A stretch of 64,000 nt of DNA from Paramacrobiotus metropolitanus (lineage: Eukaryota; Tardigrada; Eutardigrada; Parachela; Macrobiotidae). The first letter of the stretch is position 1. Each line of letters opens with the position of its first letter. Below the pieces are notes generated by a model. The model made no database searches and was not told the origin of the DNA. It saw only the letters and a list, made by a program, of their open reading frames with translations. The stretch spans positions 1 to 64,000 of the forward strand of contig NW_026570438.1 of NCBI RefSeq assembly GCF_019649055.1, in the 5' to 3' direction. Shown piece after piece: positions 19,950 through 60,438 of the stretch. A program made the translations under genes and the position numbers.

Positions 19950-19955
19950 CTGCTT
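19950..19955. repeat. Target-site duplication, left (CTGCTT)
   Basis: The six bases CTGCTT directly precede the left TIR and are repeated exactly at 40682-40687. Polintons make 6-bp duplications. Confidence 0.92.
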
Positions 19956-20946
19956 AGCAGCAAAGAGAGCTTCTTGCTAGTGGAATCAGCTTACCGGCCA
20001 TGAGAATCGACCAACTGAATAAAAAATAGAATTAATAATTCGATTAAAAAAATTAATTTCCAGCGTGGAAAAAATAATTTCGATAATTCGGACAGAAAAA
20101 TCGTGATTGGCTGGTTTCAGTTAGCTGCTGGACCAATCACTTCACGCGAATCACTTTTGAATCTACCACGGTATTTTTGCTTCTCCAAAAGGTCTGAGTT
20201 CTACAGAACAACTTTTTAAAAGTTTGCCACGGAAATCAAGTTGGGAAAACTAGTATCTTCGTTTTCGTACTAAAGTCATCTCTATCAACCAAGTCTGCAC
20301 GAGTTGGCTTATCGATTTGCAAGTTGCACTTGAGTGCAGTGTACTAAGTGAACTATCGTACTGGTACCAACACAGAGCGAGCGAAGCGACGGCTGTTCAC
20401 AACTTTGATTTTAATTCCGTTAACGCAGCATTCAAACACTCCACAGACTTTGCGCCCAGAAAATTACATTTTCCCGAATGAAAAAGAACAGCAGTACATG
20501 CGGATAAGCGAATAGGCAAACCAGTAAATAATTCAGGAGTATAGGATAACTGCAGGCGATTACTGATACTTTCCAGATTTAACTTCTGACCAAAGTTAAA
20601 TGAACCAATCATATTAACAATACGATAATTTGTAACCATACAACGGTAACCACACTGACGTAATAAACTAGTGAAATAATGCAAGAGAGCGCAGGACTCC
20701 CGCCGAGATGTGCCGCCATTGACCGTAATCCGTCCATTAGCATACAGCTGGCAGTGACCTTTCATGGGATGCAGTGTCCGCAAGAGTAAGCCGGAAAATC
20801 TATGCGGTAGGTACTGGGCCATCGACAGTGTCTTCTCCAACTGGGCGAGGTCCAGGATACAGTTTAGTTCCGCAGTCGCCACAACATTTTTCACCGCCAC
20901 TATCTGTTGATACGAGTACAATTACCAGTACGTACAACTACACAAG
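19956..20946. repeat. Polinton left terminal inverted repeat (991 bp)
   Basis: The reverse complement of 39691-40681 matches over its full length. I could spot about six substitutions, for example in the A/T run near 20025-20035, and no net length change. Similarity stops abruptly after 20946. It contains the second copy of the TBP-like exon. Confidence 0.95.
20397..20899 (-). CDS. TBP-like protein, left TIR copy (5' exon missing)
   Basis: This is the mirror copy of the right-arm TBP-like exon, with the same predicted protein over the whole domain. It covers both halves of the TBP saddle: first half with PHRFSGLLLRT and a GRITVNGGT turn, second half with SYTPELFTGL and HSGKCNFLGAK. The reading frame is open upstream of the splice acceptor at 20900, but no ATG precedes the domain; the first in-frame ATG lies about 30 residues inside. 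The unique first exon of the right copy has no counterpart here. It is therefore either silent, a spare copy kept alike by exchange between TIRs, or spliced to an exon I did not find. It points outward, towards the element end. Confidence 0.75.
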
Positions 20947-26315: not shown

Positions 26316-29300
26316 ATGGATTACACATTATCTGATGTTGATATGGCTGATTTAATAGCGGACGGTGATTGGGATGACGATGATCCCATGCAGTTAGATA
26401 GCGATACATTACGTGATGCAGCCATGCTAGCGGCAGAGGATGACTGGGTTTTGGATGAACCTATGCCCCAGTGGGGCGGTAGTTCTGAAATAGCTGACAG
26501 AGTCGATGTTCGTTGCATTGGCCGTAAATATTCTAGAAAGTTTCGTGTACATCTGAACACTTTTGACGTTAAGGTTTCTGATTTAAATGGTACTGCGATC
26601 AGTGACATTCCGCAAACCATTTGTAGTATTTTGGAGTATATTCTGGCTGTTGTATTGACTGGTGTGAACGACAGCGATGCGGTCCGTCTGCGTGTTGATT
26701 CCCGTCATTTTGATCGTCCTCTTTATACATCGTTGACCCTCCGGACCGAGTTGAGTGTCCAGCGGTGGATGGCCGATATCCAGCGCGTTTTGAATAGCCA
26801 TGAAGAATTCAGACTGGACGATTCCTTCCAAATCTTTGTTCAGCATACGGAGCTGCCGTTTGGTCGTTGTGTGAAGGATGTTCCGGCTCTCCTGATGCGT
26901 CGTCTGAAGAAGATGAAGTCCGTGACGATTGTTAATGGCGATGATGACCTTTGCATGGCGCGCGCGTTGGTGATGGGCAAAGCTTTAGCCGACAACGACA
27001 AGAAGCTGTTCCGGAGCCTGCGGCGGAGTAAGCGCGTGATTACAAAGTTAGCCAAGCAGCTCATCAAGCGTGCCGGTTTGCTAGAGCGGGCGTACACTCT
27101 TAGAGATTTATCGGCGTTCGAGAAAGTTCTTCCCGCATATCGTATTGTTGTGGTTAGCGTTGACCATGCAAATGCCATTGTCCATAAAGGCCATAAGCAT
27201 AAGAAGCATATAATCCTGCTGCATCATGACGGTCACTTTGATTTGCTAAAGTCGTTGCCGGCGTTCTTTAAGCGTAACTACTGGTGTTTTGAGTGCATGA
27301 AGGGGTACGATAGCCGTGTTAAGCATCGCTGCCGTGCGAGGTGTTCGTTGTGCCTCCGCGCATCTTGCTCGCAAGATGCCGACAATCTTCTCGTTTGTCC
27401 GGATTGTCATCGTACGTTTCCTGGCCAGGATTGTTTTAATTATCACAAGCTTGGTAGCACAAAGGGTCGTTGTCATCGGCGTAAGGCTTTATGTGACACC
27501 GTTAAGCTCTGTGTCCAGTGCCGCTGCATTTATTCCAATGCCCAGCGCAAGCCGGACAATCCTCACCGTTGTGGCGAGACGAAATGCAAGACCTGCGACG
27601 TCTTTGATCTTCCCGCGGATCATCGCTGCTACATGCGGCCTAAGCCATTCTCTCTGGACCGGATGGCCAAGTGCTCCTCGGCGAAATTCTTGTATTTTGA
27701 CTTTGAGACCTACGTTTCTCCGTCCGGCGACCTTGTGCCCAACTTAGCGGTAGGTTGTCCATTGTGTCCTAATTTTTATGGTGTAACATGCTGTATTGCG
27801 ACAGGTTGTACAGAATGACGTAGGCGATGAATGGATTTTCCCTGACTCTGCGACCGAAATTGGCAAGGACGTTACCGATAACCTTTGCACATTCCTGTTC
27901 CAGGAAGACCACCAGGGCTATTACGTCATCGCCCACAATTTTAAGGTAATTTATTAGACCATTCATTTAAAATCACTCTTATACACCCGGCCGACTTTTG
28001 TAGGGGTTTGATGGATACTTTATCCTCAATTGGTTGCTGCGGAACGGCATCGTCCCAAAGGTCATCATGAACGGCGGCAAGATCTTGATGTTGGACGTTC
28101 CGGCACCATACAACATCCACTTCCGCGACAGTTATAACTACAACCCGCAAAGTTTGTCTAAGTGGCCGGCGACCTTTGGATTGGAGAATGCCAGCAAGCG
28201 AACCTTCCCCCACCGGTTCAATCGGCCCGACAACTGGAACCGCGTCGTGCCCTTTCCTTCCAAGGACGAGTACGGCTACGGCAGTATGAAGATGAATGAC
28301 CGGATGGATTTTGACCGATGGTACGATGCGGAGTTTGCGGACAAGGGCGGGATCTTTGACTTTCGGAAGGAGTGTGTCCAGTATTGCCAGAATGACGTCA
28401 CGGTACTGCGTCAGTGTTGCCAGCAGTTTGCCCAGCTGTTTACGGACATCAGTGATGGACTGAATCCTTTCGTCTCGGCCGCCACCATTGCCGGAGTCTG
28501 CAGCGTTTACTGGCGGACCTTCCTGCTGAAGCCGGAGCAGATCGGCCTGATTCCTAACCAGGGCTTCGGACGCAACCGCCCACAGTCCACCAAGGCCCTT
28601 CGCTGGCTACAGTGGATGGAAGCCGAAGGTCTGTGTGCAATCCAGTCAAAGGTCACCGGCTCGGAGCACAAGATCGGCTCGTACTTTGTGGATGGATTTT
28701 GTGCCCAGACCAATACAGTGTACGAATTTCACGGCTGCTGGTTCCACGGCTGTCCTCAGTGTTTTGCCGGCAATACTGTCCATCTATACCGCGGCCTAAA
28801 GATGTCAGACATTTACCGGGAAACCATGGACCGCGACCAGTATTTTAAAGATACGGGATATAACGTAGTTGTTATCTGGGAACATGAGTACGACCGGATG
28901 CGCGTCAGTGACCCCGACTTCAACGATTATGTTCGCACCATCAACATTCAAGCCGGAATCAATCCCCGGGATGCCTTCTACGGTGGACGCACCAACGCGG
29001 TCAAGCTCCATCACAAGGTGGCCGAGGATGAGCGGATCTGTTACTATGACGTGCAGCGAATATCCGTTCGTGAACAAGACCAAACGGTATCCCACCGGAC
29101 ATCCGGTCATCATCACCAAGGATTTTGCGGATCCGCGCAGTTACTTCGGCCTTATGTCTTGCAAGGTGTTGCCGCCCGAAGATCTGTACTTGCCCATCCT
29201 TCCGTACCGTAGCAAGGACAAGTTGACCTTTCCACTTTGTCGGACCTGTGCCGACCAGCGCATCAACGCCCCCTGTGAGCACGAGCCGGACGAGCGCGCA

Positions 29301-30480
29301 CTGATTGGCACTTGGTGTACACCGGAAATCGTGGCTGCGCTGGACCGTGGTTACGTCATCGCGGTAATCTATGAGGTATGGCACTTTGACCAGCACGAAG
29401 ACCGCCTCTTTGAGGGATACATCAACAAATTCCTAAAGATCAAGACCGAGGCCAGTGGATGGCCGGCCGACGTCACAACCGAAGACCAAAAGACCCAGTA
29501 CATCCAAGAGTACCAGGCCAAAGAAGGGATACAGTTGGACCGTGAGAAAGTGCAAGAAAATCCCGGTTTGCGATCGTTGGCCAAACTGATGTTGAATAGG
29601 TAAGTGGGTTACAGGATTTCGTCTTGATGAGCAACATTTATGTTTTGTTGTAGCTTTTGGGGCCGTTTGGGTATGCAAAACAACAAGTTGACCACGGAGT
29701 ATGTCAGTGACCCGGCCCGGTTTTATGAGCTGTTGCTGTCCGGCCAGTACCATGTCCACTCGTGGGACCTTTTCGGGGAAGAAGTCCTGCAGGTCATGTA
29801 CACGAAAGAAGAGGGCTTCATTGACGATAATCCTAGCACCAATGTGGTACTTGCAGCGTAAGTACTAGTAACATCGCAAGTTTCTGGCCATAACCTCTCT
29901 TGTTTTTGACCGTGACCTTTCCTCGTTTTTGACTGACCCCAGGTTTACAACTTGTTGGGCTCGGCTGCATTTACTGCAATTCATGGAACAGGTCCAGGAC
30001 CGGCTGCTATATTTTGACACGGGTCAGTCGATGATGTGCTCTGTTAACGGCCCGAAATTGCACTGTTATGTTGCAGACTCTATTATCTTTGTGGACCGGC
30101 CCGACCAGCCCAAGCCGGAAACGGGCAAGTTTTTGGGTGACCTAACGTACGAACTGAAACCCGGACAGCACATTGTCGAATTCGTTAGTCTGGGCCCAAA
30201 GACGTATGCGTATAGGACGAATGATGATGTTGACATCGTTAAGCTTAAAGGATTTACTCTTAATGGAGCGACTAGCCAAGCTATTAATTTTGAGCGCATG
30301 TTGTCCATGTTAGACACTTCGGAAGAAGTGATTGTTAATTATCCTGACACTATACAGCGCCATAAGCCCAGTTTAACTTTAGGGCAGCGCGATATGTCTA
30401 AGAAGTTTCGTATGACCTATGACAAGCGCCGAATTGTTGAGAATTGGAACACTTTACCATTTGGCTATGTACCAAAGTGA
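26316..30480 (+). CDS. polB: Protein-primed family B DNA polymerase (frameshifted copy)
   Basis: Six exons: 26316-27749, 27805-27945, 28004-29599, 29654-29857, 29943-30022 and 30077-30480, with short introns of 55, 58, 54, 85 and 54 nt. Exon 1 has an acidic start, a Cys/His-rich region and Exo I (YFDFETY). Exo II spans the second intron (AHNFK then GFDGYF). Exo III is YCQNDVTVL. EFHGCWFHGCPQCF is typical of Polinton polymerases. Motif B spans the third intron (KLMLNS then FWGRLG). Motif C (YFDT...) is completed across the last 54-nt intron, which stays open if unspliced and otherwise appears to remove a catalytic Asp. A frame change near 29051, within motif A, breaks the reading frame. An AATAAA lies just after the stop. 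The product would replicate the element using a terminal protein primer. Confidence 0.93.
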
Positions 30481-31548: not shown

Positions 31549-31626
31549 ACATTTAAGTGTTTTCGACCAATAGTAGGCGTGTGAAAGTGCTTTTGTACGT
31601 CTAACTGTTAGTTTTTATTCGCAGAC

Positions 31627-32316
31627 ATGTATTCAGTGCTTGATAGTGATCCACGTTTTAAGGCATGCTTCGGCTGTTGTGTGTGCGGGCCGACCATGTC
31701 GGGAAAAAGTGAATTTGTGTTTAATCTGATTAAAAATCGAGAGCAGATGATAGACCGACCGCCTGACCGCATTGTGTATTGTTATGGTGAATATCAGAAA
31801 GGATTTGATTTGCTACTAGAGGCAGAGCCGAAAGTGGAATTTGTTAAGGGCATAGAAGAAGTACTAGCCAATGATGACTTCTTTAATACTAATCAACACA
31901 CACTGCTTATTATTGACGATTTGTCACACGTAATTAACAAGGATATGCGATGTACAAAGATATTTACGCAAGGCATACATCATAAAAATGTATCCGTTAT
32001 TTTAATCCTGCAAAACCTGTATAAACAGGGAAAAGCTATGAGAGACATTATGCTAAATTGTCAGTATCTAGTGTTGTTTAAGAATGTGCGTGACGTGAAT
32101 CAGATTAGTACACTAGCTCGGCAGATGGGTCTACCGCACCTGGTAGACGCTTACCGAAAGGTCACTTCGGAGGCGTACCAGCCAATCATTCTGGACTTGA
32201 GAAGTAACTGCCCCGACTATTTAAGGGTGCAGTCTCATGTGATGCCGGATCAGTATATGCGGATTTATTTAAGTAAGAACAACAGTACTCTGCCTAAGCC
32301 ATGTCGGAAAGAGTGA
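31627..32316 (+). CDS. FtsK/HerA-type genome-packaging ATPase
   Basis: The protein has 229 residues. It contains Walker A GPTMSGKS (residues 21-28) and Walker B LLIIDD (about 93-98), followed by an FTQGIHHKNVSVILILQN segment with the conserved Gln (sensor-like). It belongs to the A32-like packaging ATPases shared by Polintons, adenovirus-related elements and large DNA viruses, which pump DNA into capsids. The frame is intact and overlaps the start of the next gene by 16 bases. Confidence 0.93.
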   Translation: MYSVLDSDPRFKACFGCCVCGPTMSGKSEFVFNLIKNREQMIDRPPDRIVYCYGEYQKGFDLLLEAEPKVEFVKGIEEVLANDDFFNTNQHTLLIIDDLSHVINKDMRCTKIFTQGIHHKNVSVILILQNLYKQGKAMRDIMLNCQYLVLFKNVRDVNQISTLARQMGLPHLVDAYRKVTSEAYQPIILDLRSNCPDYLRVQSHVMPDQYMRIYLSKNNSTLPKPCRKE

Positions 32317-33085: not shown

Positions 33086-33159
33086 CATGTCCTCTTTTCT
33101 GCCGTCAGTTCTACGCCTTTGCCGAGTTTTCCGGATAAATTGTGTCTCAACGTGTTGCA

Positions 33160-34152
33160 ATGAATCAACTCCTGAAGAAATATCTGGACGCAAAAAATCC
33201 CGGAAGCTTTGGCGGCGTAAAAAGGTTTTATCAAGCGACAAAGCAACACAAACTGAACCGTGGGAAGGCCAATGAGCTGTTGGAGGAACTGGATGAGTAC
33301 ACGGTAACAAAGGACCGTTCGAAACGTTTTAAACGCAATCAAATTGTGGTCACGGACCTTCAAATGCAGTATCAAATTGACTTGGCTGATTTTTCTAAAT
33401 ATTACAAAGAGAATGATGGTATAAAATATCTGTTGTTTGCCATAGACTGCTTTTCTAAAAAATTATGTGTGGTTCAAATGAAAAGCAAAAATGCTACGGA
33501 AACAAGAAATGCTTTGCAAAAAGTGTTTGATGACTTGGGTGAACCGATGCGTGTACAGACTGATAAAGGGCGCGAATTTGTGAATGATATTGTTCAGTCA
33601 TTTCTGGAATCCAAAAGAGTGGAATTTTTTACATCCGAGAATGAAGATATAAAATGTGCCATGGTGGAGAGAGTAATACGCACTATAAAATCACGCATGG
33701 TCCGGCTATTTAGACACCGAGTGTCCACACGCTGTACCGATAAGCTCAATGACCTGGTGCATTCGTACAACCGTTCTGTCCACCGCGCTCACGGCATGCG
33801 GCCTGTTGATGTCACCGAAGAAAATTCATTGGAAGTATTTAACAAGCTGTACAAAGACACCATCGCTGAAGAACCCAAGTTTAAAGTGGGCGATACGGTT
33901 CGTCTAGCTGTTAACAAGGGAAAATTAGACAAAGGATATAATTACAATTTCAAAGAAGAAATATTCACCATTGCCAAAGTCGTACGGCACAAGATTCCTG
34001 TATATCGGCTAAAAGATGAGCACGGCGTAATTATTAAAGGCCAATTTTACGAGAAAGAATTATCACGCGTGCGGAATGTGGAGAATAAAGAGCATACTAT
34101 TGATTTTGTAATCAAACGGCCAAAAGGTAAAGCACTAGTACGGTGGTTTTGA
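33160..34152 (+). CDS. Retroviral-type (DDE) integrase
   Basis: The start is the ATG at 33160, because an in-frame stop lies just before it. The protein has 330 residues. The RNase H-like core has D66 (VVTDLQ), D135 (QTDKGREF) and E170 (MVERVIR). NDGIKYLLFAIDCFSKK is the usual second strand region of Polinton integrases. The C-terminal part (FKVGDTVRLAVNKGKLDKG) is an SH3/chromo-like DNA-binding module. It would insert the element and make the 6-bp duplication seen at its ends. The frame is intact. Confidence 0.95.
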   Translation: MNQLLKKYLDAKNPGSFGGVKRFYQATKQHKLNRGKANELLEELDEYTVTKDRSKRFKRNQIVVTDLQMQYQIDLADFSKYYKENDGIKYLLFAIDCFSKKLCVVQMKSKNATETRNALQKVFDDLGEPMRVQTDKGREFVNDIVQSFLESKRVEFFTSENEDIKCAMVERVIRTIKSRMVRLFRHRVSTRCTDKLNDLVHSYNRSVHRAHGMRPVDVTEENSLEVFNKLYKDTIAEEPKFKVGDTVRLAVNKGKLDKGYNYNFKEEIFTIAKVVRHKIPVYRLKDEHGVIIKGQFYEKELSRVRNVENKEHTIDFVIKRPKGKALVRWF

Positions 34153-35183: not shown

Positions 35184-35582
35184 ATGCCTTTAGTACCGTA
35201 TGTTCCTGATCCGCGGCGGTATGAAGATGTTTTCGTGGCGCAGACTGGCGGCAGCCCTCTTCTGCGCTATCGTGGTACATTGCAGAATGGTTCTGGTTTT
35301 GCGCAAGTATTAAAGAATATTATTGCTAAGATTTCTTCATTTGCTAAACCCATTATACGAAGAGCGGCACCGCATGCTAAGGCAGCACTCGAAGCAGCAA
35401 CACCGCACTTGCAAGAAGCAGCCACCGGAGCTATTGAAGACGTTGCTGCACAAGCCAGCGAAGCTATTAGTAGACGGATGCAGCAAGGCGAAGGTGTGCG
35501 GAGAAAGCGTACTCGTAAAGCCCGTAAAACTTCAAAGCGTGCCCGTAGAATTCCCCCGACAAATATTCCTGATTTTCTGTAA
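35184..35582 (+). CDS. Basic virion-core-type protein
   Basis: The protein has 132 residues, starting MPLVPYVPDPRRYEDVFVAQ. A Gly-rich piece (RGTLQNGSGF) is followed by a long amphipathic Ala-rich helix region and then a strongly basic tail (RRKRTRKARKTSKRARR). Polintons carry such a protein directly before the capsid gene, compared with adenovirus pVI/pX-like proteins. It is likely to bind DNA or membranes in the particle. The frame is intact. Confidence 0.6.
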   Translation: MPLVPYVPDPRRYEDVFVAQTGGSPLLRYRGTLQNGSGFAQVLKNIIAKISSFAKPIIRRAAPHAKAALEAATPHLQEAATGAIEDVAAQASEAISRRMQQGEGVRRKRTRKARKTSKRARRIPPTNIPDFL

Positions 35583-35584
35583 TC

Positions 35585-36928
35585 ATGGCAATGATGATGA
35601 TGCCCAATTCGGAGCCAGCAATGCAGTTGGAAAATCAGCTCTTTGCTTTGCCTGCAACATTGACCGACCGATGGCGCACTGAACACGAGAAACTTAATCC
35701 TACAACGATATTTACCGAGGATGGGACTGCTGGCGATATTAACTTCTACATTCCTCCAAGTACGGCTGGACTGTTGAGTTTAGGTGACATGGTACTGGAG
35801 TTGGAAGTGGCAATAAAGGTCAAGAAAAATAACCAGAATAATTTTGAAATAATCACTGCCGCTGAAGGGGTGGCCCCGGTGAACAATTTTCTGCATTCAT
35901 TATTCCAATCGGTTCATGTAACGGTGGCTAATCGCCTGATCTCGGATGCGGCAACATTTTATCGGTATCGCGCTTATTTTGAATCATTGTTATTTCATTC
36001 TCCGGAAGCGCAATTTTCGCAATTAAGCTCAGCGGGCTATGCGCTGGATTTGCCGGGAAAAATGAACAATCAGACCGATAACACTGGTGAAGTATGGCGG
36101 CATGACCTTTTTGGGAAGGGAGAATATGTACAATTATCCGGAAAAATATTTGCCGATTTATTTGACCAAAGCAAACCGCTCTGTACGGGCATTCCTGTCC
36201 AAATACGATTAGTTATGAACCGGCCAGAATTTTGCCTACGTGTTTGGGATGCCGATAAAGATACTAAAACATACAAACCATTCATTCGAAATGCTCGGTT
36301 ATCAGTACGCCGTTATATTCCGGCTCCGGACTTTATGACCGCTGTAGCCGGCCAGTTACTGAATCGCACGGTTAAATACCACATTGAACGGACTGTCATG
36401 CGGGTGGCCGACATTCCGAAGAACACCCAAAGTACTGTAGTGACCAATCTGCAGATTGGTCAAATTCCTAAGGTGGTATTCATTGGTTTCCTGGACAGCG
36501 AAGATTTTCACGGCAATTACCAGAAAAATCCATTTAATTTTCACCATTTCGACGTACGGCAGATAAGTGTGGAAGTGGATGGACAAAGTTATCCGACCAA
36601 ACCATACAATGCTGATTTTGCGAAAATTCAGTCATTGGAATGTTACGATGGGTTGCTGGATGCACTGGGCGCAAAAAACCATCCCACCGGATGCTGGTCG
36701 GTCAATCGTAATGGCTATAACGAAGGATACGCTATTTTTGGTTTTGATTTGACACCTGGTCATACGGGGCGTGGACCGTTGACTTTAATCAAACAGGGAA
36801 ATTTAAGTGTGTCGGTGACCTTTGCAAAGTCACATGCTAAATCATTGATGATGGTGTGCATAATGGTGTTTGATAGTATTATTGAGTTTAACCAGCATCG
36901 TCAGTTGATTGCGGACTTCTCAACATGA
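35585..36928 (+). CDS. Double-jelly-roll major capsid protein
   Basis: The protein has 447 residues. It has the hallmark pattern of Polinton capsid proteins: FALPATLTDRW near the start, DINFYIPPSTAG, NNFLHSLFQSVHVTVANRLI, then YRAYFESLLFHS, and late FDLTPGHTGRGP. The fold forms pseudo-hexameric capsomers of an icosahedral shell. The frame is intact. It starts three bases after the preceding stop, and its last codons overlap the protease start (ATGA type), so the late genes are tightly packed. Confidence 0.93.
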   Translation: MAMMMMPNSEPAMQLENQLFALPATLTDRWRTEHEKLNPTTIFTEDGTAGDINFYIPPSTAGLLSLGDMVLELEVAIKVKKNNQNNFEIITAAEGVAPVNNFLHSLFQSVHVTVANRLISDAATFYRYRAYFESLLFHSPEAQFSQLSSAGYALDLPGKMNNQTDNTGEVWRHDLFGKGEYVQLSGKIFADLFDQSKPLCTGIPVQIRLVMNRPEFCLRVWDADKDTKTYKPFIRNARLSVRRYIPAPDFMTAVAGQLLNRTVKYHIERTVMRVADIPKNTQSTVVTNLQIGQIPKVVFIGFLDSEDFHGNYQKNPFNFHHFDVRQISVEVDGQSYPTKPYNADFAKIQSLECYDGLLDALGAKNHPTGCWSVNRNGYNEGYAIFGFDLTPGHTGRGPLTLIKQGNLSVSVTFAKSHAKSLMMVCIMVFDSIIEFNQHRQLIADFST

Positions 36929-37440
36929 ACTCGGAACAATTATCGGCGGCCATGCGGGCTAACCCTATCACTAGCTCGACATTCCGTGGTGTGTTTGCTG
37001 CCGATGAAGTACCAATGGACCTACAGCCCTATCCTGCGTCATGTATCGTCAATACGGACCCAGCGAAGCAGCCGGGCGAACACTGGGTGGCCATATACCA
37101 GAACCAAGCCAGTGTCATTGAATTTTTCGATTCGAATGGAAAATTACCGGCATATTACAGCGAGGCACTCAAGCAAAGATTTTCTGGTAGCGTTAGACTA
37201 GTGACCCAAGCCGAAGTGTTGCAGTCTGAATTTTTTACGGTGTGTGGGCAGTACTGTATGTTTTTTATTTTACAGCGATGCAGTGGTCAGCCATTTGGCT
37301 CAATTGTTAAAATGTTTACTGATAATAAGGCGAGCAATGACAAGATGGTTTGCCGATCTGTTAATCATCACATCCAGCTTAATACAGAAATATGCAACAG
37401 CAGATTTCTAGAAAAACAGATTGTTCGTGGATTAATATGA
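36925..37440 (+). CDS. Adenain-like maturation cysteine protease
   Basis: The protein has 171 residues. It contains the expected triad of the adenovirus-protease/Ulp1 clan: H53 (GEHWVAIY), D69 (FFDSNG), Q100 and the nucleophile C107 (FFTVCGQYC), with Gln seven residues before the Cys as in adenain. It would cleave virion precursors. It overlaps the capsid gene by four bases, and the frame is intact. Confidence 0.93.
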   Translation: MNSEQLSAAMRANPITSSTFRGVFAADEVPMDLQPYPASCIVNTDPAKQPGEHWVAIYQNQASVIEFFDSNGKLPAYYSEALKQRFSGSVRLVTQAEVLQSEFFTVCGQYCMFFILQRCSGQPFGSIVKMFTDNKASNDKMVCRSVNHHIQLNTEICNSRFLEKQIVRGLI

Positions 37441-37478: not shown

Positions 37479-38630
37479 TTACATCATCATTTTATCCAAC
37501 TGGGCACGCACTTCCTTACGAAACTGTGCCAAGTAGCCATCAACATCCAGATCAATACACTGACCAACATCTAGCTGATTAAGCAACAACAACACACCAT
37601 GAATCTGCTTCTTTTCCAAAACGTCCTTCTCGGCAGTGTTCCATTCTTCATCCGTAGCGATTCCGCGCATCGGCGTACGACCAGTCGCATTCTCACGGTG
37701 CTCACGAATATTGCGGAACATGATTTCAGCCAATTCCTAACAAATAAAACGGACCAGTGTAAAAAATCTGACGGTTCAAAAATTAACAAAGTGCAAAAAT
37801 TGACAGCTCAAAATTTACATGTTGTAAAAAACACGTAACGCGAAATTTACTTTGGTAAAAACAACCAATTCAAAAATGACATTGTAAATTCGGCCAAGTA
37901 AAATTATTAAAACTTTACGTATTCAACTAACCTGTTTTAACGAAACGGAAGCGAGTCCGGGCTTGGGATCCGCGGCGACATCATGAGCCTCGTTGGTGTC
38001 CTGGATCTCCTTCAGCAGCGTGAAGTCCACCACCAGTTCCTTGAGTCCTTCGTAGGCCTTCCGACCGAAAGAAATACCGACCTTGGTTGGATACAAATTT
38101 TTATTAGGTGTCAGGTTAAAGCGGCGTACAGTGGCCAGGTCCATGTTGTTGTAGCGGCTCCACTGGAAGTACAAGTTGTCGTCCAGGCAGTAGTGTAGTG
38201 ACAGCTTTCCGTTATCGAACAATGGCGGGCACGACGAGACCAGGTCGGCTTTACCAGTCAGCATTAATCCACAGAGGCGCAAAAAGTTGTTAATGGTCAT
38301 GGCGATGTACTTGTTGGCATCCACAGGCTTAAAGGTACCGTCCGGCTGCTCTTTAAATTCGGCTAAGACCACCTTCGTCCCTCCCTCCAACTAGCGAACC
38401 ACGGCAAACTTGTCAAATCCGATCTTGTAGACCGGCATTCCCTGTTCGGTGAAAGCGTAGCGGGCATGCTTGCCGGGAAGAGCGGAGGCGCTGCGGGCCA
38501 TGTCGGATTTCTTTTGGCGTTTGATAGGTTCCAGCTGCGTCCGGTCCTTGGAGATCTTCATGGTGATCTTGCGCTTAGGGTTCTTCCGGGCCGATGTCGA
38601 GGTCGACGGGATATCAGCGAGAAATTCCAT
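37479..38630 (-). pseudogene. Protein with two PC4-like segments (in-frame stop)
   Basis: On the minus strand, exon 1 runs 38630-37932 and exon 2 37736-37479, joined in frame across a 195-nt intron. The N-terminus is Ser/Lys-rich (MEFLADIPSTSTSARKNPKR). Two segments resemble the ssDNA-binding coactivator PC4: KFAVVR...KVVLAEFKEQPDGTFKP, and ATVRRFNLTPNKNLYPTKVG followed by FGRKAYEGLKELV. A TAG at 38391-38393 sits inside the first of them. The C-terminus is coiled and charged. PC4-like proteins bind single-stranded DNA and help RNA polymerase II initiation or viral replication. It starts divergently from the TBP-like gene across the motif cluster at 38.8-38.96 kb. The PC4 call is by motif memory. 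Confidence 0.6.
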
Positions 38631-38743
38631 TATTAAATAACTGTTGTTAAAAGTACAAGTAGTTAGCGATTTAGACAAAAGTCAGATGAGAAACGGTAAG
38701 GAAAACTTAAGAACTGTTTGCTCAAGGTTTCAGCTGCAGACCG

Positions 38744-38970: not shown

Positions 38971-38978
38971 TATATAAT
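38971..38978 (+). promoter_or_regulatory. TATA box before the TBP-like gene
   Basis: TATATAAT lies 75-80 bp before the ATG at 39052 and just after the repeat cluster. Confidence 0.5.
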
Positions 38979-39051: not shown

Positions 39052-40240
39052 ATGGCTACTTACTGCTTTGCTGATGTTGAGTACCTTAATCATCATGGTG
39101 TTAAAGTGGTCACATACGTTCATTTTATTTCTCCTGAACAGCAGTGCAGTTCTTTGTCGAAAATTAGTTTTCCATGTAGAGAAACTATTGTTAAAGAGTA
39201 TGGTTTGCGTAACGTTAACAAGGGCGTAATTGTCGGCATGCAGTTAGCAGAAAACAAACGAAGTCTGCAACGTGCTCTCGAGCATTGGTACTCGATGATG
39301 TTTTTTCGGCTCGATAAAAGGCATGACCCTGACCACTGGGGAGGTGACGTTGGCGACGTTACGTTTTATGCTAAAGGAGTGGGACAGTGTGACGTACTGG
39401 CCAGCGTTGTGAAACCTGCCACTGTTATTAATATCGAGGATTTGAAGTGTCCGTCATTTAAGAAGTTATCGCCTGATCCCCCGAACAAGATCAACCAACC
39501 GACCGAGTATGCCAAATGGTTGGAAGGGTATCTGACCAAGGGAACCTGTGCGACCTGCTTGATGGTTCTACCGGATGTCAAACCGAAGCTGATTAAAGAT
39601 GAATGTGAATGTGGAAACACCTGCTGGATCAGTGAGTGTTTTCATTTATTTTCGTACTAGTGAATCTTTTGGTAATTAAAAATGCAGGAACTTGTGTAGT
39701 TGTACGTACTGGTAATTGTACTCGCATCAACAGATAGTGGCTGTGAAAAATGTTGTGGCGACTGCGGAACTAAACTGTATCCTGGACCTCGCCCAGTTGG
39801 AGAAGACACTGTCGATGGCCCAGTACCTACCGCATAGATTTTCCGGCTTACTCCTGCGGACACTGCATCCCATGAAAGGTCACTGCCAGCTGTATGCTAA
39901 TGGACGGATTACGGTCAATGGCGGCACATCTCGGCGGGAGTCCTGCGCTCTCTTGCATTATTTCACTAGTTTATTACGTCAGTGTGGTTACCGTTGTATG
40001 GTTACAAATTATCGTATTGTTAATATGATTGGTTCATTTAACTTTGGTCAGAAGTTAAATCTGGAAAGTATCAGTAATCGCCTGCAGTTATCCTATACTC
40101 CTGAATTATTTACTGGTTTGCCTATTCGCTTATCCGCATGTACTGCTGTTCTTTTTCATTCGGGAAAATGTAATTTTCTGGGCGCAAAGTCTGTGGAGTG
40201 TTTGAATGCTGCGTTAACGGAATTAAAATCAAAGTTGTGA
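39052..40240 (+). CDS. TATA-binding-protein-like transcription factor of the Polinton
   Basis: Exon 1 (39052-39631) and exon 2 (39738-40240) join in frame (donor GTGAGT, acceptor GATAG); about 360 residues. Exon 1 codes a unique domain (MATYCFADVEYLNHHGVK...) that ends with cysteines C166, C169, C185, C187 and C191 (CATC, CECGNTC), possibly a zinc ribbon. Exon 2 is a TBP core with both repeats: KNVVATAELNCILDL and RFSGLLLRT, then YRIVNMIGSFNF, SYTPELFTGL and HSGKCNFLGAK. Of the four DNA-intercalating Phe positions known in TBP, three are Phe and one is Tyr (QLYANG). Exon 2 and the end of the intron lie in the TIR; exon 1 is unique. Other small acceptor shifts are possible. TBP nucleates transcription at TATA boxes; an element-specific role is inference. 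Confidence 0.88.
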
Positions 40241-40681
40241 ACAGCCGTCGCTTCGCTCGCTCTGTGTTGGTACCAGTACGATAGTTCACTTAGTACACTG
40301 CACTCAAGTGCAACTTGCAAATCGATAAGCCAACTCGTGCAGACTTGGTTGATAGAGATGACTTTAGTACGAAAACGAAGATACTAGTTTTCCCAACTTG
40401 ATTTCCGTGGCAAACTTTTAAAAAGTTGTTCTGCAGAACTCAGACCTTTTGGAGAAGCAAAAATACCGTGGTAGATTCAAAAGTGATTCGCGTGAAGTGA
40501 TTGGTCCAGCAGCTAACTGAAACCAGCCAATCACGATTTTTCTGTCCGAATTATCGAAATTATTTTTTCCACGCTGGAAATTAATTTTTTTAATCGAATT
40601 ATTAATTTTTTTTTTTATTCGGTTGGTCGATTCTCATGGCCGGTAAGCTGATTCCACTAGCAAAAAGCTCTCTTTGCTGCT
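39691..40681. repeat. Polinton right terminal inverted repeat (991 bp)
   Basis: The mate of 19956-20946. Its inner edge falls inside the intron of the TBP-like gene, so only the TBP exon is duplicated. It ends ...CTTTGCTGCT. Confidence 0.95.
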
Positions 40682-40687
40682 CTGCTT
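40682..40687. repeat. Target-site duplication, right (CTGCTT)
   Basis: Identical to 19950-19955. Confidence 0.92.
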
Positions 40688-46518: not shown

Positions 46519-46789
46519 TGCATATTGCTAATAAACTCGCACTTGTTTAGTATCAAAATTCTTAAAATTTTATCCTCATTTGTTTGAGATATCGGTCGAT
46601 GGTTTTTGTTGGATGCGCAAGGTGCAAGTGTTATTATCAAGAGGCCGATGGTCAGACTCAAATTTGGCTGTATGAATACAGAAAAGTGCCTGGTTGCGCG
46701 CGTTTGTGAAACCTTTCACTTTCGCGCACTCCCAAACCCTTTTCTCTCTTGTTTTATTACATCCTGTAGCCAGATCAGTTGTATACACG

Positions 46790-47245
46790 GGCCTGAAGAC
46801 CGTTTGTGCGCGCAACATCCGGTTCGGGGGTTATGGCTATTGGAAAATTTCAAAAAGTTTAAATGCGTTCAGGTGTACCAAAAGTCTCGATATGGATCGA
46901 TCTCCTTCAGATTTTGCACGTAAATGCACATAACCACGAAGAACGGTTTTACACCCATCCACTGTTCTAGCATGATTTTCAGATTTCAAAATCATTTTCA
47001 AAAATGATAAAATTCGTTATAAAAGTTGAAAAAGATTATCGAAGTACGGATTGGTGTAAAAACGATCTCCATTGCAGTGAGCATTTACGTGAAAAAAATG
47101 AAAGAGATCGGTCTATATTGAGACTTTTGGTACACCTGAATGCACTTAAACTTTTTGGAATTTTCTACTAGGTAGCCATAACTCCCGAACCGGATGTTGC
47201 GCGCACGAACGGTTTTCACGCCTGTGAATACAAATCATCTGATAA
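46790..47245. mobile_element. Foldback-type inverted-repeat element
   Basis: About 125 bp at 46790-46915 (GCGCGCAACATCCGG, then CAGGTGTACCAAAAGTCTCG) is repeated in inverted order at 47105-47230, with a 190-bp spacer. A related arm lies at 3636-3690. No coding sequence. Confidence 0.65.
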
Positions 47246-57904: not shown

Positions 57905-60438
57905 CGCACATAGTATCATTAGATTCCTTGGAATTTGAGGAATATGTTATCATGCAAAAGGTTTCTCCCAAGCAGTGAGCTGAAGTTGCAAAACTTCGAA
58001 GAACCCAGCAAGGTAAAGATGGTTAAAAGCAAGTCTTGACGTCAGCCTGCGATGGTCGCAATCACACAATGCGGCGCTGCGTCTGTACAGCTGTTTCGTA
58101 CGTATGGACGTGCGATGACTCTCACAAAAATTCACAGCTCAATAGATCCCGCTGACAATAAGCGGTGTAGCGGAGAGCAGCGAACACAGATGTGATCTAC
58201 CGTAAAAATCGAATTATAAGCCCTGGGCTTCAAAAGTTGGAACGCCCTGCGGAGGGGCTTTAATTACGGGCATGGGCTTGTATTTTGGGGGGGGGGTATT
58301 ATATTTCAAATGTGTTTTATTGGCAAGGTCGTAAAAATTACATGATAATTGCTAGGTACCGGTACATGCCGGTGCTCAGAAATTTCATTTTCCGTGCATT
58401 TTATTAAAGCCCAGGGCTTCTGTTTCGGGGGGGCTTATAATTTTCGAACCATTTTGAGGGGGGCTCTACCGGGTGGCTGAACAAAATGGCGGTCTCATTT
58501 GAACCGTCGCACTGGGTCCGTCAAATGTTCGATTGCCATAATCTTAATTTCATTCGAAAGAGCAAAGTCTACCGCGTACAAAAATTAAACTCGGATTACA
58601 TAAGGCAGAGGTTTAATTTTATCTTGAATTATTTTTAAAAATTGGGCAGGTTTTAATGATGTCCTGAAAACGGAAATCTAAAATTACCTTATTATAAAAT
58701 AAAAATTGCTGTTGTTCAGCAAAGAGCCGTAATGTAACTTACGTTGCTGTTTCGGGTTGAGGGGTGGTCTCTAGTTTTTTTTATGTAAAGAACTGTTGTA
58801 TTCTAGTAACCATGTTTGGCCAATACACGGAATGGCGGCGATTAGGCATGGGACAATTTTCATGAAATTCGTAAGCAGGGATTTTGGTAGTAAATTTCTG
58901 GCCAACCCTTCAGAAGTTTATCAGGTTCAACAGTGCATCTGCACGCGCAATACATTAGCTACTGTAAAAAGCTAAAACCGGCATTTTTTGGTGCAGTCCT
59001 TATTGCGGCCAAAATTTAGATTAAAAATAATCTTAAAAATAAATTAAAAAACCAGCATTTTTTCGGAAAGTTACAAACTGTCCTGACTGCATAACTCTTC
59101 CTGGGAAAGCACGATGTCTACACCTTTTTTTATAATCAAAGTAGACGTCGTGCTCTAGATAAAACACTGAAGATTTTTCAAAAAGTACTTACGGGAAGGC
59201 AGTGCTACGAGATTCTGGGTTTTGAAACCTGGGACACGAAAAATTTTCACCCGCTTCCAAATAACTCCAGTGCAAACAAGCACGAATGAACATTTTTAAA
59301 AACGCTTTGCTGATTTTGATAGCTGAATAAATTCTCTATCAAATGAGTTTAAACAGTTCGCGGTGCGACAACTGACCCGCAAGCAACAAACAAAAATCCG
59401 AGACCGCCATTTTGTTCAGCCACCCGGTAATTACGGGGAGGGCTTCTATTATGGGGGGGCCCATAATTCGATTCTTACGGTACGAGGACGAGCTTAGTAC
59501 ATGTGATAGACAAAAAAACTAGCGAGAGAATCTGATAACCATTTGCGTGCTGTGCAACACTGTCAGCCACCTTAGGCTGGCGGTAGCCGCGCGCCGTCAC
59601 GCAGCCGTTAGCTGAACACGGTCTGCTATTTACGGTAACGCACACTCGTATTGAAATTTAAATGCGAGTTTTGTTTTGGTTTTATAACTCTGTTTATAAT
59701 TGGTTCTCCGCAAAATTTCCAGTAACCAGTGACTGACATTAATTAACCAATCTCTTGATAGTAATGTTATAAAATTACCATCTAAATATAAAGATTCATC
59801 TGGCGAGATGTACTACGATGAGAAATTGAGAATATCACCGACGTACGGCTACCTGCCAGTTTGTTTTCTGCACCTGCGATGGAGATTTCTTTCACGAGTA
59901 TCAGCGTTGTTTCGGGCCTACCGTTGAGTGAGAATTGTGTGGAGGAACCTGCCAGCGACGTCCTCAGAAAAAGAGAAAACTTAAAGATTCTCGTCTGCGC
60001 GCCGAAGCAGGGCTTATTGCGACTGACAGTAAAGTAATCGCAGCGCTCGAGCAACGGGAAGCAGAAAAACTGATGCAGAAATGTGATTAAATGTACAATG
60101 TATTAATTGTATTAAATGTGATGTATTTACCAGCACTGACAGACCTGGGTGGTTGCCCGTGTTGCACGGGCCGGGCATGGTTATCAGATTCTCTCGCTAG
60201 TTTTTTTGTCTATCATATGTACTAAGCTCGTCCTCGTATCACACGCGCTAATGATTAGGCAACGTAAGATTATGCGTGGAGTTGATGAGCATCGCAAGCT
60301 GACGTTTTGACATCAATTAGCCATCTTTACCTTGCTGGGTTCTTCGAAGTTTTGCGACTTCAGTTCATTGCTTGGGAGAAACCTTTTGCATGATAACATA
60401 TTCCTCAAATTCCAAGGAATCTAATGATACTATGTGCG
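57905..60438. mobile_element. DNA transposon with ~260-bp TIRs, left TIR split by a nested element
   Basis: The right TIR is 60179-60438. Its mate is in two pieces, 57905-58198 and 59483-59540, separated by the element at 58200-59480. Long blocks such as ATTCCTCAAATTCCAAGG (60402) and CTAGCGAGAGAATCTGATAA (59520) match in inverted order. The internal part (59541-60178) has only short frames and no recognised transposase. Confidence 0.75.
58200..59480. mobile_element. Nested DNA transposon with TA duplication
   Basis: The ends CCGTAAAAATCGAATTATAA and the reverse complement of CCATAATTCGATTCTTACGG form an inverted repeat, flanked by TA (58198-58199 and 59481-59482). The unbroken right TIR of the host element shows the empty site with a single TA, which confirms the borders. 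G-run/C-run blocks near both ends (GGGGGGGCTTATAA type) are part of it. No transposase frame is seen. Confidence 0.8.

Follow-up and report, generated by a model that had tools for sequence, protein, structure and literature searches.

A Polinton-borne TATA-binding protein lineage in the tardigrade Paramacrobiotus metropolitanus, with a proposed role in element promoter recognition

Animal Polintons are usually thought to rely on host promoters and host initiation factors. Among virus-type genomes, published reports describe a TATA-binding protein (TBP) gene in 59% of mirusvirus genomes (PMC10132985), TBP genes in algal phycodnaviruses (PMC4602308) and, in KSHV, the protein ORF24, a TBP mimic that serves viral late promoters and keeps Phe residues together with an Asn-rich polar interface (PMC12529657). 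Here we describe a TBP gene carried by a Polinton of the tardigrade P. metropolitanus and place it in the context of its relatives in the same genome and of cellular TBPs. All window coordinates refer to a 64,000-nucleotide stretch (positions 1 to 64,000 of contig NW_026570438.1, forward strand), hereafter the window.

The window harbors an element of 20,726 bp (19956-40681) that is flanked on both sides by a perfect 6-bp target site duplication (TSD), CTGCTT (19950-19955 and 40682-40687), and bounded by terminal inverted repeats (TIRs) that are 99.19% identical over 991 bp (left, 19956-20946; right, 39691-40681). On the plus strand, it encodes a family B DNA polymerase, which in this copy is spread over more than one frame, with two overlapping frames (28004-29603; PF03175, E 1.2e-19 and 5.8e-13) and a probable end (29872-30480; PHROG DNA polymerase, E 5.1e-5); the PF03175 matches assign it, by sequence, to the protein-primed type. 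Also found on this strand are an A32-type packaging ATPase (31612-32316; PF04665, 23.5 bits versus a cut-off of 22.8), a retroviral-type (rve) integrase (33139-34152; PF00665, E 1.9e-12) and an adenain-type cysteine protease (36892-37440; PF00770, 21.6 bits versus 21.3), the ATPase and the protease both lying just over their cut-offs. A conserved 451-aa ORF (35573-36928, plus strand) with at least 99 matches in the genome is a candidate for the double jelly-roll major capsid protein; searches of Pfam, PHROG and a phage collection gave no match to it, and none in the PDB was significant. The polymerase has at least 105 matches in the genome and the ATPase at least 150 scored matches. Pfam matches (DcpS_C and Tmpp129) in the flanking sequence fit an element inserted in a host chromosome. 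Elsewhere in the window, two 122-bp inverted repeats (57905-58026 and 60317-60438; 97% complementary, 2.3 kb between them) perhaps belong to another transposon, and a long hairpin (46771-47241) is made up of two inverted-repeat pairs (77% and 88% complementary) that share one centre. Farther along the same contig, outside the window, lies a subfamily F Polinton with a TBP of its own (G000:C218:113250-125628).

The TBP ORF (39716-40240, plus strand) covers both saddle repeats and corresponds to what a first-pass annotation of this DNA had called exon 2 of a Polinton-encoded TBP. That identification held: PF00352 matches the ORF with 105 bits (cut-off 22.9) in two stretches representing two tandem repeats, structure prediction returns the TBP saddle fold, and the four DNA-intercalating aromatic residues are present as F, Y, F and F. 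The gene indeed lies within a complete Polinton, with TIRs, TSD, polymerase, integrase, ATPase and protease, and it differs from the host TBP gene (G000:C4:406165-406662), an ordinary TBP gene whose top hit in the PDB is chain 1nvp_A, a human TBP (294 bits). Identity between the window TBP and human TBP is 26%. The annotation was therefore right about a Polinton-borne TBP distinct from that of the host, and its scope has to be widened, as the gene is a common one of this animal's Polintons. A second TBP ORF (20397-20921, minus strand) is found in the left TIR without an upstream exon, and the two TIR copies differ by two synonymous and no nonsynonymous changes. In a DNA search of left ends, the first ~160 nt of the window TIR was the sole match to those of five other copies of the same subfamily, A (C59, C232, C27, C131 and C26), and the left end of C10, also family A, was not found; because those left ends match only ~160 nt of the TIR, TBP is apparently doubled in the window copy alone. 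The right end of the element appears to have been copied onto its left end (19956-20946) in this copy.

A search of the genome with the window TBP, in which 150 of 291 candidates were scored, gave at least 144 loci after merging, and the union with a second search that used a divergent TBP copy comprises at least 217 loci. These fall into nine subfamilies, A to I, grouped by eye according to identity, spacing and tree. Among the matches listed, 123 of the 144 loci lie within 25 kb of a polymerase, integrase, ATPase or capsid-candidate match, and 98 lie near at least two of these kinds of Polinton gene. Random placement of the 144-locus set (200 rounds) linked 18.3 loci on average and never more than 29, figures that overstate chance linkage because only contigs with a match were used and their lengths were taken as the highest matched coordinate. 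Binned by percent identity, the linked loci among the matches listed are 6/6 (90 and over), 5/7 (60-89), 52/53 (49-59), 46/58 (40-48) and 14/20 (under 40). In the union set, a Polinton gene lies no farther than 25 kb from 171 of 217 loci, and for 46 none was found within that distance, again among the matches listed. Taking the other genes as the starting point, a TBP lies within 25 kb of 134/150 ATPase, 85/93 capsid-candidate, 108/120 integrase and 95/105 polymerase matches among those listed. Spacing is near-constant inside subfamilies: most family A copies have 10.5-10.9 kb between TBP and the polymerase and 5.4-5.6 kb between TBP and the integrase; most family B copies have TBP on the strand opposite to the polymerase, 1.4-1.9 kb away; and the distance between TBP and ATPase is often 0-504 bp in several families. 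As a control, TFIIB searched by its Pfam family in the same genome gave 3 loci only, which rules out a search artefact as the source of the TBP multiplicity. Two family G TBPs carry long C-terminal extensions (L017:2993-3961 and L018:1177-2241; ORFs of 323 and 355 aa). A tblastn search of a viral contig collection with the window TBP, the TBP alignment, the host TBP and the ATPase gave no confirmed relatives.

To place these proteins relative to cellular TBPs, we used an unrooted tree of 57 chosen rows, among them 19 Polinton rows and 11 cellular-type rows (the host TBP, two PDB chains, seven named database proteins and the unnamed P0070). The Polinton TBPs are separated from the cellular-type TBPs, that of the host included, with a support of 100/98, and the Polinton-type sequences form two clades (support 100/99 and 99/94). 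A quick tree of 143 rows, from which P0027 (see below), proteins under 160 aa and 11 further rows (ten with long branches or an odd make-up, and P0074) had been dropped, agrees with this arrangement, with 49 rows in clade 1 (34 of them unnamed database proteins) and 44 in clade 2 (37 unnamed). These unnamed relatives come mostly from ena, jgi and lgn sources and are presumably metagenomic.

Conservation at individual positions, given in human numbering after alignment on a PDB TBP fragment, distinguishes a retained set from a changed one. N253, F288 and F305 are unchanged in 22/22 Polinton rows; T313 is replaced by Leu in all 22 and T222 by Asn in 20. Clade 1 further conserves Tyr at F214 (49/49), Thr at V220 (49/49) and Asn at V311 (48/49). 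At V220, T222, V311 and T313, which from TBP-DNA structures we take to be base contacts, the window TBP has T, N, N and L and does not match the cellular set. Rows on the cellular side have Thr at 313 in 38/50 cases and at 222 in only 25/50, so that the change at T222 says little by itself. Changes in base-contact residues argue for an altered specificity and not against membership in the TBP family or its fold. E284, presumably a TFIIB contact, is lost in rows of families A, B and C and kept in those of D, E and F and in 43/44 clade 2 rows, and its loss argues against ordinary TFIIB recruitment in families A to C; E286 is kept in 20/22 Polinton rows.

The TBP reading frame is on the whole kept by selection, as follows from the low omega values (Nei-Gojobori counts) of 0.05-0.2 in most pairs. 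The window TBP gives 0.07-0.19 against its family A relatives at a dS of up to 1.1, and the single computable family B pair gives 0.19 at a dS of 2.5, which is saturated. Values in the other subfamilies are 0.07 (D), 0.12-0.17 (E, between subgroups), 0.11 (F), 0.05-0.25 (G) and 0.33 (the H pair), and three family C copies are identical. The values of 0.46 and 0.85 for two close family E pairs would be expected of copies that decay once inserted. In family A, the first 35 codons, where the reading frame overlaps another, mostly have a higher omega (up to 0.35) than the rest (0.06-0.13); for the window and C59, omega over these 35 codons is zero.

This other frame belongs to a gene upstream of TBP. 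The gene has a Cys-rich end, and the product of its main exon (39052-39631, plus strand; exon 1 of the first-pass annotation) shares 51% identity with the NCBI protein P0027 of P. metropolitanus, which matches two other genome copies at 98% identity over 196 residues. From the sequence, the frame of P0027 and a junction scan of nine family A copies, we infer a phase 1 intron (39632-39733, plus strand; GTGAGT..ACAG) followed by a last exon (39734-39837, plus strand; stop at 39835-39837) that matches the last 35 residues of P0027 and runs in the other frame over the TBP start. The acceptor at 39733 leads to this Cys-rich end, as in P0027, and is present with an open frame behind it in 9/9 family A copies. 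A second candidate acceptor lies 4 nt downstream, at 39737, and would place TBP in frame with exon 1; its AG and an open join are found in five of the nine copies (window, C59, C3, C196 and C10) and the join is absent in C232, C26, C27 and C131. The segment 39631-39837 thus has two candidate acceptors that feed two overlapping frames, and in part of family A one mRNA could yield either the Cys-rich upstream protein or a TBP fusion.

Whether exons 1 and 2 of family A form one fusion protein, at least as a splice form via 39737, bears on where TBP translation begins, and we rate such a gene model at slightly under even odds. No ATG precedes the domain in the TBP frame of the family A copies read, the window included. 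In favour of the fusion, the second join is in frame and open in copies that span a deep family split (dS about 1), creating a Met in the window and C59. Against the fusion stand the four copies that lack the join and the NCBI model, P0027, which takes the first acceptor into the frame that is open in all nine copies. The left TIR also has no exon 1: the TIR boundary at 39691 falls within the intron, and the left TIR therefore carries the TBP exon alone. Finally, sequence homologous to exon 1 precedes TBP in families B, C and D. In the copies read from families B and D, the two genes are separate ORFs that overlap, with 68 nt (B) or 17 nt (D) of the upstream ORF extending past the TBP start, whereas the family A upstream gene has an intron. 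Outside family A (families B to I), one ORF encodes the whole TBP, a Met stands directly before the first strand in 20/22 copies read (the exceptions are L030 and L048), and in most copies read there the protein is no more than a TBP core of 171-197 aa. The family B overlap is seen as 68 nt of dual coding for a Cys-rich segment and the first TBP strand in L012:3412-4381, L042:589-1540 and L045:224-1196, and in family D the stretch analysed contains two copies of the upstream gene (L014:8467-9030 and L014:1695-2153), the one distant from TBP with a TATA box in front. The upstream protein itself has no Pfam match and a lone PDB match at chance level (E 0.44), and its structure prediction (pLDDT 39.7) is too poor for use.

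Divergent from the TBP unit is a PC4-like coactivator ORF (37923-38390, minus strand; PF02229, E 2.7e-5) that scores 24.0 bits, just below the cut-off of 25 that its relatives exceed; a stop at 38391-38393 parts it from a same-frame ORF upstream (37923-38681 in all, minus strand). PC4 acts as a coactivator in transcription by RNA polymerase II (Pol II) and also binds single-stranded DNA. The family C copy reaches 34.2 bits, that of family E is weaker, and those of family B are not significant alone (E 0.024 and 0.061). Ten places in the genome exceed the PF02229 cut-off, nine on element loci and the tenth on C41 (81 bits), presumably the host's own PC4. A TBP lies within 25 kb of 88 of the 102 PC4-like loci, in 72 cases on the opposite strand and no farther than 2 kb away.

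A TATA-like sequence, TATATAAT (38971-38978, plus strand), lies 81 nt ahead of the ATG of the upstream gene. No shared promoter motif was found in the element upstream regions, where the best 7-mers were weak, and TATA[AT]A is not enriched (9 of 90 upstream stretches versus a shuffled mean of 7.4), which rules out a general TATA box ahead of Polinton genes. Six of these nine stretches precede a TBP or its upstream gene. By clade, a TATA box stands 45-87 nt ahead of the ATG in 6/6 clade 2 TBP units read and a TATA-like site is present in 3/17 clade 1 units.

We consider, with a probability of roughly 0.6, that the gene encodes a TBP of a separate Polinton lineage that acts on element promoters together with host Pol II and with a shifted sequence preference. 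The protein would most likely sit on element core promoters, where its four aromatic side chains would bend DNA as in cellular TBP, and would recruit host Pol II, which we propose because no RNA polymerase or TFIIB homologue is found among the element ORFs scanned. The changed base-contact residues would shift its preference off the host TATA box and favour element promoters, and the product of the adjacent PC4-like gene would assist as a coactivator. The base-contact changes, purifying selection and PC4-like neighbour fit such element-directed promoter recognition, which the first-pass annotation had also suggested; the loss of E284 in families A to C and the lack of a recovered motif speak against its simplest form. 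Also weighing against it are the missing ATG in the family A TBP frame, where four of nine copies lack an open join to exon 1 as well, the higher omega of the two close E pairs and of the H pair, and the 46 of 217 loci without a linked Polinton gene among the matches listed. KSHV ORF24, which serves viral late promoters, offers a precedent. Through its altered DNA-reading residues, the protein may let the elements control the reading of their own genes.

Other roles for the same protein have to be weighed against this one. It might be a decoy that binds host partners (TFIIA, TFIIB, TAFs, Mot1 and NC2) or host promoters and so damps host transcription or defence without starting transcription of the element. 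Retention of E284 in 43/44 clade 2 rows and in families D, E and F would suit a protein of this kind, as would the failure to find an element-specific motif. The DNA-bending residues would be dispensable in a decoy, whereas all 22 Polinton rows retain N253, F288 and F305, and the base-contact changes are consistently fixed; we therefore regard a decoy as unlikely. We judge similarly improbable a DNA-bending protein that acts on element ends or the element genome, in replication start, packaging or integration, and not in transcription. The position of the window TBP gene inside the TIR and its closeness to the packaging ATPase gene in several families (often 0-504 bp) point in that direction, but a long TBP-bearing TIR is seen in the window copy only, and gene neighbourhood says little on function; moreover, the other neighbour belongs to a transcription coactivator family, PC4, though PC4 also binds single-stranded DNA.

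A host origin of the loci, as TBP-related factors (TRFs) located by chance among repeats or as domesticated copies that serve the tardigrade, has a very small probability. The 46 of 217 loci without a Polinton gene within 25 kb, among the matches listed, are what one might expect of such genes, which would be of single or low copy number and group with cellular TBPs, but some links to Polinton genes lie beyond the matches listed. The sequences found here instead occupy at least 217 loci, are separate in the tree and keep a near-constant spacing to Polinton genes in their subfamilies. Linkage, copy number and tree together rule out a host TRF or a domesticated gene, and the window copy is further set apart from one by its place inside a mobile element with TSD and TIRs.

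Returning to the reading of a TBP that acts on element promoters, a larger and doubtful extension of it would be that Polintons own an old, dedicated initiation module, which comprises a re-coded TBP, a PC4-like coactivator and a Cys-rich partner that can be fused by splicing, and which runs a two-step programme on host Pol II. In a first step, host TBP would activate the clade 2 TBP gene through its host-type TATA box, and the product of that gene would then read the TATA-less element promoters. The 34 unnamed rows of clade 1 and the 37 of clade 2 suggest that the module may be widespread beyond this tardigrade.

The terms TATA and TBP are not mentioned in the main texts of PMC11071308, PMC10120064, PMC8097293, PMC4028283, PMC4642659 and PMC9952930 or in an adintovirus report, and PC4 is likewise absent from the Polinton, Maverick and adintovirus texts searched for it. 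No Polinton TBP is described in the literature searched, which consisted mostly of papers outside subscription, and an earlier mention is possible. A Polinton lineage with its own TBP would be what is new here, TBP in mirusviruses and algal viruses being known. With a TBP beside most Polinton genes found in one animal, and in two clades, these elements would bring their own core promoter factor; the proteins would be naturally re-coded variants on which DNA reading by TBP could be studied, and they would open a route to how Polintons switch on inside a living animal.

Compared with known systems, the window element shares with animal Polintons/Mavericks and adintoviruses the same polymerase, rve integrase, A32 ATPase, adenain-type protease, TIRs and 6-bp TSD. 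Relative to cellular TBP (the TFIID subunit, PF00352), the Polinton TBP differs by T313 to L and mostly by T222 to N, with V220 to T, V311 to N and F214 to Y in addition in clade 1; it is encoded by a mobile element and falls in separate clades. The vaccinia TBP-like subunits of VITF-3 and VETF work with a viral RNA polymerase and a TFIIB-like partner (PMC12917281), neither of which was found among the element ORFs scanned here. In mirusviruses and phycodnaviruses, TBP is a gene of large dsDNA viruses, whereas here it is found in an integrating element of ~20 kb; a small integrating element would thereby join the TBP-bearing virus-type genomes of herpes-, pox-, phycodna- and mirusviruses. The TBP mimics of beta- and gammaherpesviruses, including KSHV ORF24, are likewise of virus type, keep Phe residues and have a polar, Asn-richer base-contact face (PMC12529657). 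ORF24 works with host Pol II, as we propose for the Polinton TBP; it differs in having an extra C-terminal DNA-binding domain and no TFIIB-contact Glu residues (PMC12529657), whereas E286 is kept in 20/22 Polinton rows and most copies read from families other than A consist of the TBP core only.
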